64,000 bases of DNA, from NCBI GenBank assembly GCA_951828385.1, contig OX639973.1:1612001-1676000 (forward strand), given 5' to 3'. Of this stretch, positions 33,790 to 53,524 are shown in pieces. How positions within the stretch are numbered: the first letter of the stretch is position 1; each line of letters starts with the position of its first letter. Made by a program: the position numbers and the translations under genes. The notes under the pieces are model-generated. The model made no database searches, was not told the origin of the DNA, and was given only the letters and a program-made list of their open reading frames with translations. Origin of the DNA: an uncultured Poribacteria bacterium. Lineage in GTDB: Bacteria > Poribacteria > WGA-4E > WGA-3G.

Positions 33790-34845
33790 GTGAACTTAAA
33801 AGCTACTTTTGCACAACTTCAAGGCAAACGGGTAATGATTGTCGGTGATGTCATCGTGGACGCATATATCTGGGGGGATGTAAACCGAATTTCGCCCGAA
33901 GCCCCTGTCCCAGTATTCGAAATCGAGGCAGAGAAGACCGGATGTGGAGGTGCGGCGAATGTCGCACAGAATGTCGCCAGCTTGGGTGGCGACGCAATCC
34001 TGGTCGGTGTCGTCGGGAAGGACAGGGAAGGCGAAAAGTTAGTCCAGATGCTAACCGAAATGAATCTTGCCACTACTGGGATCTGTATAGACGCTCAGCG
34101 CCCGACAAGCACAAAAACACGTGTGATTGCGCGTGCGGATACCACGACTTTTACGGGCCGCGAGCGTGATTCAGGGCACCATCTGCTTCGCATAGATAGA
34201 GAATCCAAACAGGAAATCTCTATAGAGATACAAGCACATCTATTGAACAGTGTAGTTTCCGAGTTGCCAACAAGTGATGCAATTATCTTTGCAGATTACG
34301 ATAAAGGCGTGATTAACGCGCAGCTCATCCGGGACGTTATGAAACATGCCCAACCCTATGATATCCCCATTATCGTCGATCCGAAGCGAGACAATTTTTG
34401 GGATTATAAAGGTGTAACAGCCATTACACCAAATCACAATGAGGCTGGAGTCGCTGTTCAGCAAGAGATAACTGATGTTCGACAGCTGCTCGCTATTGCT
34501 GAAGAGATCATAAGTCGGCTATCGCTCAAAGCGTTGCTAATTACACGCGAGGCAAAAGGGATGTCTCTCTTTCAACGCAAACCTGACGGAAGTCTGCAAG
34601 TAAAACACCTACCACCGCAGTCTAATGTCGTGACAGATGTGACAGGTGCCGGCGATACGGCTGTCGCCGTTTTCACACTCGCGCTCGCGGCAAACGTCGA
34701 TTTTTACGCTGCTGCGGTATTGTCAAGCCTCGCGAGTGGGATTGCCGTTGGAAAGATGGGGTGTGCTACCGTCACACCCAAGGAACTGCTGAATGCAATT
34801 GAAACCGAAGCGGCTGTCTCTGAACTGTACGGAGACTCAGAATGA
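33790..34845 (+). CDS. hldA: D-glycero-beta-D-manno-heptose-7-phosphate kinase
   Basis: 351 residues, PfkB/ribokinase fold. Phosphorylates heptose 7-phosphate at C1 on the way to ADP-heptose for the LPS core. Motifs: MIVGDVIVDAYIWGDV near the N-terminus, GCGGAANVAQNVASLGG, and the anion-hole DVTGAGDTAVAV near residue 285. Only the kinase domain is present, unlike the E. coli fusion HldE, so a separate adenylyltransferase (HldC) should exist. GTG start gives the normal family N-terminus and has no ribosome site. It overlaps gmhB by four bases. Confidence 0.95.
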   Translation: MNLKATFAQLQGKRVMIVGDVIVDAYIWGDVNRISPEAPVPVFEIEAEKTGCGGAANVAQNVASLGGDAILVGVVGKDREGEKLVQMLTEMNLATTGICIDAQRPTSTKTRVIARADTTTFTGRERDSGHHLLRIDRESKQEISIEIQAHLLNSVVSELPTSDAIIFADYDKGVINAQLIRDVMKHAQPYDIPIIVDPKRDNFWDYKGVTAITPNHNEAGVAVQQEITDVRQLLAIAEEIISRLSLKALLITREAKGMSLFQRKPDGSLQVKHLPPQSNVVTDVTGAGDTAVAVFTLALAANVDFYAAAVLSSLASGIAVGKMGCATVTPKELLNAIETEAAVSELYGDSE

Positions 34846-52687: not shown

Positions 52688-53524
52688 ATGGAAGCCTATA
52701 AAGGCTATGAAAATCCACAACTAATTATCTCGGCTGAGGCATTAAAAGAGACACTCGGCGATGAAACATTCTGTATCGTGGATACGCGACCGACTTATGA
52801 ATATATTCGGGGGCATATTCCCGGTGCACTTCATTTAGATCTCTTCGGTTTGAGTCTCATCGATACCCGCAAAGAAACGTTCGATGCCTTCATGTGGATG
52901 ATAGCGTACCTGTTTCAGCAACGCGGGCTTGATCCGACAAAGCCGATTGTATGGTACGAAGACATCTCTGGAACCAGGGCATCGCGCGGACTTTGGTTCT
53001 GTGAGTACTTGGGACATTCCGATACCCGTTTATTAGATGGCGGTTTTAGAGCATGGTTAGCCGCAGAAGGTCCTATTAGCACTCAAGGCAGTGAACCACC
53101 CGAGGTCGAACCGTTCCCTATCAATTCCCAGCACGACACGCACATGGATGCAGATGTGATCCGCGTGCTGTTAAACCGATCAGATTTTGTCCCGCTTGAT
53201 ACACGTACAGATGACGAACATTACGGCAGAGTGGCTCGCGCAGAACGTGCAGGTGCAATTCCTGGCTCTATTCATATCGAATGGCTCAATAATCTTGATG
53301 AAGTCGGGGCTTTCAAAACTGCTGACGAACTCCGAGAGATGTATGCGGCAGTGGGTATTACACCCGAAAAGCAAGTCATGTGCTACTGACAGGGCGGATA
53401 CCGCTCTTCCCAAACCTATTTGGCGTTGCGGCTTTTGGGATACCCGAAAGTCAGTAACTACATAGGTTCGTGGAAAGAGTGGGGTGACCGGCTGGATCTG
53501 CCGGTCGAGATTCCTGAAGGTTAG
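52688..53524 (+). CDS. Two-domain rhodanese (thiosulfate/3-mercaptopyruvate sulfurtransferase type), probable selenoprotein with TGA at the catalytic position
   Basis: AAGGAG precedes ATG 52688. Codon 234 is TGA (53387-53389). Reading it as an amino acid gives 278 residues ending at TAG 53522-53524. The N-terminal rhodanese domain (about 10-135) has [19 protein letters not shown] and a non-catalytic Asp at its active loop (WYEDISGTR), as usual. The C-terminal domain has [24 protein letters not shown], then VMCY-TGA-QGGYRSS and, past the [17 protein letters not shown] and [15 protein letters not shown], exactly the family C-terminus. The TGA replaces the sulfur-carrying Cys of the Y-C-Q-x-G-x-R-S loop. 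Selenocysteine is the best reading; a point-mutated pseudogene is the alternative. Confidence 0.8.
53390..53439 (+). promoter_or_regulatory. Candidate SECIS region after the rhodanese TGA
   Basis: Bacterial SECIS hairpins lie just after the UGA. Two candidates: GGGCGG-ATA-CCGCTC (53392-53406), and TCCCAAA (53408-53414) with TTTGGGA (53434-53440), whose upper part can close on GC-GTT-GC with the loop G 36 bases after the TGA. A competing CCAAA/TTTGG stem exists. None is a textbook match by eye. Confidence 0.3.

Follow-up and report, generated by a model that had tools for sequence, protein, structure and literature searches.

A predicted selenocysteine rhodanese of Poribacteria and a candidate split SECIS element within its coding region

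In the genome of an uncultured, sponge-associated member of the Poribacteria, a gene encoding a tandem-domain rhodanese carries an in-frame TGA at the codon of its catalytic cysteine, which raises the question of whether this codon is read as selenocysteine (Sec) and, if so, which signal in the mRNA directs the insertion. The gene lies in a stretch of 64,000 nucleotides (nt; hereafter the window), corresponding to positions 1,612,001 to 1,676,000 on the forward strand of contig OX639973.1 (assembly GCA_951828385.1). The host genome is a single contig of 6.66 Mb, and those of its near relatives that bear names are all Candidatus Poribacteria. Our analysis suggests that the gene product is a Sec-containing tandem rhodanese and that Sec insertion is likely to be directed by a selenocysteine insertion sequence (SECIS) element that is split into two helices, P1 and P2, located downstream of the UGA (Table 1).

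The in-frame TGA of the rhodanese gene

The reading frame consists of 233 residues, the TGA at codon 234 and 44 further residues before the terminal TAG, and the TGA is its sole defect, as a first-pass annotation made from the letters alone had described. The read-through protein matches the Pfam Rhodanese family (PF00581, 118.8 bits) in two stretches and shows the two-domain layout of COG2897 sulfurtransferases, in which the C-terminal rhodanese domain carries the active-site loop. The best match among solved structures is Azotobacter RhdA (PDB 1e0c, E 6.5e-39), in which the residue aligned with the TGA is Cys230, the catalytic residue; the corresponding loops read UQGGYRS and CQTHHRS, and the earlier placement of the TGA exactly at the catalytic cysteine was thus borne out. 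When compared to the NCBIfam SseA model NF008557, the protein scored 97.6 bits (E 6.4e-28), which is below the 250-bit equivalog cut-off. Sequence does not assign a substrate to the enzyme, which may use thiosulfate, mercaptopyruvate or a selenium donor.

Within the order, we found a full-length orthologue of the rhodanese in 70 of 73 genomes, 67 of which contain one in-frame TGA, while the remaining three are stop-free and encode Cys. In all 66 distinct Sec forms that were aligned, the TGA occupies the same codon, and the column contains only TGA or Cys codons among the aligned relatives, the Cys codon being TGT in one poribacterium and TGC in two others and in an alphaproteobacterium. Since 67 of the 70 full-length orthologues share one in-frame TGA, and share it at the same codon wherever aligned, the sequence comparison indicates that its position at the catalytic cysteine is not a chance coincidence; random placement among relatives, which would have spoken against a selenoprotein, is ruled out. 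Nonsynonymous divergence (pN) was 0.034 after the UGA and 0.134 before it, and its ratio to synonymous divergence (pN/pS) was 0.075 and 0.185, respectively. The coding sequence downstream is therefore conserved as protein, and purifying selection acts more strongly past the UGA than before it.

The genome also encodes the machinery for Sec insertion, all four genes of which were recovered by searching it: selA (604 bits), selB (355 bits, with the SelB wing 2 and wing 3 domains, which are RNA-binding winged helices), the tRNA-Sec gene selC just beyond selB (76.4 bits), and selD (369 bits), which has an in-frame TGA of its own. Together with the Sec/Cys column, this machinery supports the initial suggestion of a likely selenoprotein.

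Two other accounts of the TGA have to be considered. A pseudogene, or a Cys codon mutated to or misread as TGA, would likewise appear as a gene that is intact but for one in-frame stop. The same TGA, however, is present in 67 genomes, which come from many independent assemblies, and this excludes a sequencing error for TGC or TGT; and both the strong purifying selection past the TGA and the full Sec machinery argue in the same direction. On the comparison of sequences, this account is already refuted by the conservation of the TGA, and we regard its probability as negligible. Alternatively, since the inserted residue is not observable from sequence, UGA could be generally or alternatively recoded (as Trp, Gly or Cys) or be subject to low-level stop readthrough. 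However, of the 42 frames in the window that reach 250 codons, 5 end in TGA, among them the frame ending at 34845, in agreement with the first-pass reading of TGA as a normal stop, and it is also the final stop in 6 of 66 orthologues of the rhodanese gene itself, so the genetic code has not been changed wholesale. The genome has further in-frame TGA codons in selD and in Prx-like genes (see below), and tRNA-Sec and SelB are present, which makes recoding or readthrough highly improbable. We consider it close to certain that UGA 234 encodes Sec; selenium at residue 234 is predicted, with the other hallmarks of a bacterial selenoprotein in place.

Two further observations concern the protein. Two residues ahead of Sec (C-Y-U; window 53381-53383), most orthologues have a Cys and a few have a Ser, and this Cys is a possible candidate for the resolving thiol of an Se-S bond. 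A second tandem rhodanese, which is stop-free and 32% identical, is encoded elsewhere in the genome and is also found in nearly all related genomes; the Sec form is thus not the only sulfurtransferase.

Table 1. Features of the rhodanese gene and of other genes discussed. Positions refer to the window unless preceded by G000 C1; numbers in parentheses count from the U of UGA as 0.
Feature	Position	Strand	Remarks
Selenoprotein gene (predicted), tandem-domain rhodanese / thiosulfate (mercaptopyruvate) sulfurtransferase, SseA/COG2897 type	52688-53524	+	278 aa; stop TAG 53522-53524
In-frame TGA, predicted Sec codon 234, C-terminal rhodanese domain	53387-53389	+	catalytic Cys position (UQGGYRS); aligned with Cys230 of 1e0c; TGA or Cys in all aligned orthologues
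Competing UGA-proximal hairpin H (+1..+22)	53388-53409	+	3' arm shared with P1
Spacer between UGA and P1	53390-53400	+	11 nt
P1 5' strand CCGCUCUU (+14..+21)	53401-53408	+	8-bp helix
Coding loop closed by P1	53409-53474	+	66 nt; no conserved internal structure found
P1 3' strand AAGAGUGG (+88..+95)	53475-53482	+	+92 covaries with +17
P2 hairpin GACCGGC-UGGAUCU-GCCGGUC (+99..+119)	53486-53506	+	candidate SelB-binding part of SECIS
Second tandem rhodanese, stop-free	G000 C1:4503708-4504538
selD (L041)	G000 C1:1330118-1331041		own in-frame TGA
Seven AhpC-TSA/Prx-like genes with TGA	G000 C1:3558500-3558871, 3000482-3000856, 3558950-3559321, 1248826-1249212, 5843503-5843874, 6428706-6429095, 3596176-3596508		one in-frame TGA each, inside the domain

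Two conserved helices downstream of the UGA

The first-pass annotation had pointed to bases 53387-53445 as the place of a bacterial SECIS (bSECIS). This expectation did not hold: no conserved canonical SECIS was found there, folding of these 59 nt gave a z of -1.7 and no SECIS-like element, and the structured, conserved RNA extends to 53506. Likewise, a scan for canonical bSECIS elements in the 16-37 nt window returned a best hairpin that occurs in just 16 of 66 sequences, and neither the region nor the window as a whole matched any Rfam family.

In the alignment of the 66 distinct Sec genes, which was used for all RNA analyses, two helices stand out. P1 pairs +14..+21 with +88..+95 (8 bp, 100% canonical) and P2, which follows after three nucleotides, pairs +99..+105 with +113..+119 (7 bp, 99.6% canonical). 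P2 was first spotted by eye from invariant synonymous codons and P1 from the alignment, both before any scan, and the first sighting was therefore not blind; the helix scans, however, used no prior structure, and they returned P1 and P2 as the only helices of at least 7 bp at 95% or more canonical pairing in the whole gene. Of the alignment cells in P1 and P2, 99.8% are paired, compared to 39-54% in slid registers. Nine near-invariant synonymous codons (-1, 1, 4, 6, 29, 34, 35, 36 and 38) were detected among 180 codons with conserved residues, and seven of these lie inside P1 or P2 (hypergeometric 5e-8). Consistently, the mean synonymous entropy ratio rose from 0.25 in P1/P2 to 0.66 in the loop that P1 closes and 0.80 upstream.

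Covariation was observed for pair 17/92 in P1, which is C-G in 49 sequences, U-A in 13 and U-G in four, with no case of C-A. Both sites underwent four parsimony changes each on a tree built from the upstream part of the gene only, and the pattern was equalled in one of 594 simulations of independent evolution with matched counts; by normalised mutual information, the pair ranks 53rd of 67,353 column pairs. In P2, pair 101/117 shows one compensatory change from C-G to U-A, accompanied by a Val to Ile replacement on one side. The P2 loop reads UGGAUYU in 65 sequences and UGGACUU in one, and the P2 core occurs in the rhodanese gene only when searched across its own genome. A possible 7-bp helix between +31..+37 and nucleotides +104..+110 around the P2 loop was also considered; it shows wobble changes only and no covariation, and a loop pseudoknot is unsupported.

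With UGA in the A site, the first nucleotide left free by the ribosome is at about +12. When folded from this position, all 66 sequences contain P1 and P2 in their minimum-energy fold, and 64 of 66 do so when folded from the UGA itself. In the Sec forms, the pair probabilities are 0.94 for P1 and 0.99 for P2, as opposed to 0.00 and 0.00-0.19, respectively, in the four Cys forms, which retain 6 of the 8 P1 pairs. The P1/P2 fold is thus lost in the Cys forms although the protein is conserved. Taken together, these data make it very likely that P1 and P2 constitute a real RNA structure.

A proposed split SECIS element and its alternatives

According to the published rule, a canonical bSECIS comprises a stem of 4-16 bp and a loop of 3-9 nt with a G in its first two positions, located 16-37 nt from the UGA (PMC13188914). 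P2 has such a stem and loop, with 7 bp, an apical loop within the 3-9 nt range and a G among the first two loop nucleotides, while its loop is 103 nt from the UGA in the linear sequence. With P1 and the loop it closes excised, this distance becomes 21 nt in 65 of 66 sequences. Judged from sequence and geometry, P1 and P2 probably act as the SECIS, working through SelB on P2. In the mechanism that we propose, SelB and tRNA-Sec would translate UGA 234 as Sec. P1 would form during the pause of the ribosome at this codon and loop out 66 nt of coding RNA, so that the path from UGA to loop shrinks from 103 to about 21 nt, shaping the mRNA in such a way that P2 is placed where SelB reaches the A site. 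SelB carrying Sec-tRNA-Sec would bind P2, the loop of which, UGGAUYU, offers the G/GG that a SelB ligand should have, and after Sec insertion the ribosome would melt P1 and then P2. In the enzyme, the selenol would replace the Cys that carries the sulfane sulfur, and the transferred sulfur would be held as an Se-S intermediate.

Other selenoprotein genes of the genome, in which the loops are 16-21 nt from the UGA, provide a comparison. Seven AhpC-TSA/Prx-like genes contain an in-frame TGA, pointing to a rich selenoproteome in this genome. Two of the Prx-like genes have a SECIS-like GCAACU-CGGUG-AGUUGC with its loop 20-21 nt from the UGA; read off the sequence, another has GCUCGCUC-CGGGAUAGUUU-GAGCGAG (21 nt) and a further selenoprotein gene has CUGCC-AGGUU-GGCAG (20 nt). 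SelD is itself a selenoprotein, and its gene contains a short canonical SECIS, GCUC-CRGGK-GAGC, that lies 16 nt from the UGA and is strictly conserved in 30 of 30 sequences. The P2 loop shares GG with these other SECIS loops and GGAU with one of them. A clear SECIS element was looked for and not found in the Prx-like gene L191, and the CMD/AhpD-like family has no Sec copy in the genome. When the Prx-like Sec gene L183 (G000 C1:1248826-1249212) was subjected to the same analysis with 30 relatives, no helix longer than 6 bp was obtained and the most constrained codons were +6 to +9, directly behind the UGA; L183 thus serves as a negative control and indicates that the method does not create structures like P1 and P2 by default. 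L183 also has a second near-invariant synonymous stretch at codons +30 to +34 (CAG TGG CCC CGT GAA), approximately 90-104 nt 3' of the UGA, which no helix explains.

Several findings weigh against a split SECIS. The P2 loop lies outside the published spacing that most bacterial SECIS elements hold, and its sequence differs from those of the genome's other SECIS loops. Each helix has only one pair that varies on both sides, most others being invariant, and the covariation in P2 is a single event. Helix lengths alone are only moderately unlikely under synonymous recoding (p ~0.01), so that the case for P1 and P2 rests on the combined evidence. Finally, when RNAalifold is applied to the whole stretch, the hairpin H next to the UGA comes out ahead of P1 by a margin below 1 kcal/mol (-22.5 vs -21.75). 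The last point bears on the possibility that UGA encodes Sec but that the SECIS is an atypical local element directly behind it, for example H, with P1 and P2 serving some other purpose, for instance ribosome pausing or mRNA stability. Such an element would be in line with the existence of atypical SECIS classes noted in reviews and with the near-invariance of codons -1 and +1. Yet H begins inside the UGA, where the ribosome would keep it open, its loop is far too near the UGA, one of its pairs is broken in 9 of 66 sequences, and no canonical hairpin at 16-37 nt is common to more than the 16 sequences mentioned above, while P1 and P2 are lost along with Sec. We therefore consider a local element unlikely. 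Because H overlaps the UGA, a ribosome at this codon would open it and free the shared strand for P1; that this exchange is a real switch is speculation. Regarding the two codons, TAC precedes the Sec codon in 66 of 66 sequences and CAG follows it in 65 of 66 (window 53384-53392), neither of which is explained by P1 or P2; the context of the UGA or hairpin H are possible reasons.

Conservation of P1 and P2 could also be a by-product of protein and codon-usage constraint in a gene whose UGA still encodes Sec, given that most pairs fall at codon positions set by conserved residues and that 5.8% of synonymous recoding trials produce a helix of 8 bp or longer and 1% produce an 8-bp together with a 7-bp helix. 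This explanation does not account for the clustering of synonymous invariance in the P1/P2 codons rather than in the enclosed loop, the avoidance of C-A at pair 17/92, the drop in pairing in slid registers or the loss of the fold in Cys forms despite a conserved protein, and we judge it very improbable. The split SECIS formed by P1 and P2 thus remains our preferred reading.

Significance and known systems

In bacteria, the SECIS is taken to follow the UGA immediately, an assumption on which gene finders such as bSECISearch depend. For the protein, the finding means one more lineage in an established selenoprotein family. The RNA signal matters more: if a split SECIS is indeed used, its geometry falls outside the bSECIS model and is conserved across a bacterial order, and a long-range helix that restores the spacing would explain one Sec gene without an adjacent SECIS. 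Other such cases could then be found by seeking a closing helix and not only a local hairpin, and it would become testable whether the distance that SelB and the ribosome require is one in space or one along the sequence. In addition, a SECIS of this kind could evolve while the conserved residues that immediately follow the active-site Sec stay unchanged.

Sec-containing COG2897 rhodaneses have been reported from the Sargasso Sea in 2005 (PMC1088965) and from the Global Ocean Sampling (GOS) data in 2008, there as cd01449 (PMC2398784), and Sec rhodaneses are covered in recent reviews (PMC9312934, PMC13188914), with form 4, UxxG, listed in the 2026 review (PMC13188914). Among open-licence papers, a search linking Poribacteria and selenocysteine yielded two metagenome studies, in each of which the word occurs once. 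The protein described here is a new member of this known family, with the same tandem rhodanese architecture, Sec in place of the catalytic Cys and the UxxG motif (UQGG), and the insertion signal is the new part: it appears split and distal, which by description sets it apart from the published ones. RhdA of Azotobacter vinelandii, the closest solved structure by sequence, has Cys230 at the position of Sec234, and 3-mercaptopyruvate sulfurtransferase SseA (1urh, NF008557) has the same two-domain architecture, with the score below the equivalog cut-off as given above. With the canonical bSECIS (the Zhang and Gladyshev model; E. coli fdhF), the candidate element shares a coding-region hairpin 3' of the UGA, a 7-bp stem and a 7-nt loop with a G at position 2 followed by another G, and it is preceded by an 11-nt spacer as in E. 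coli (PMC8659212). It differs in that the loop is far removed from the UGA and a second, long-range helix would be needed to bring it to the spacing of 16-37 nt.
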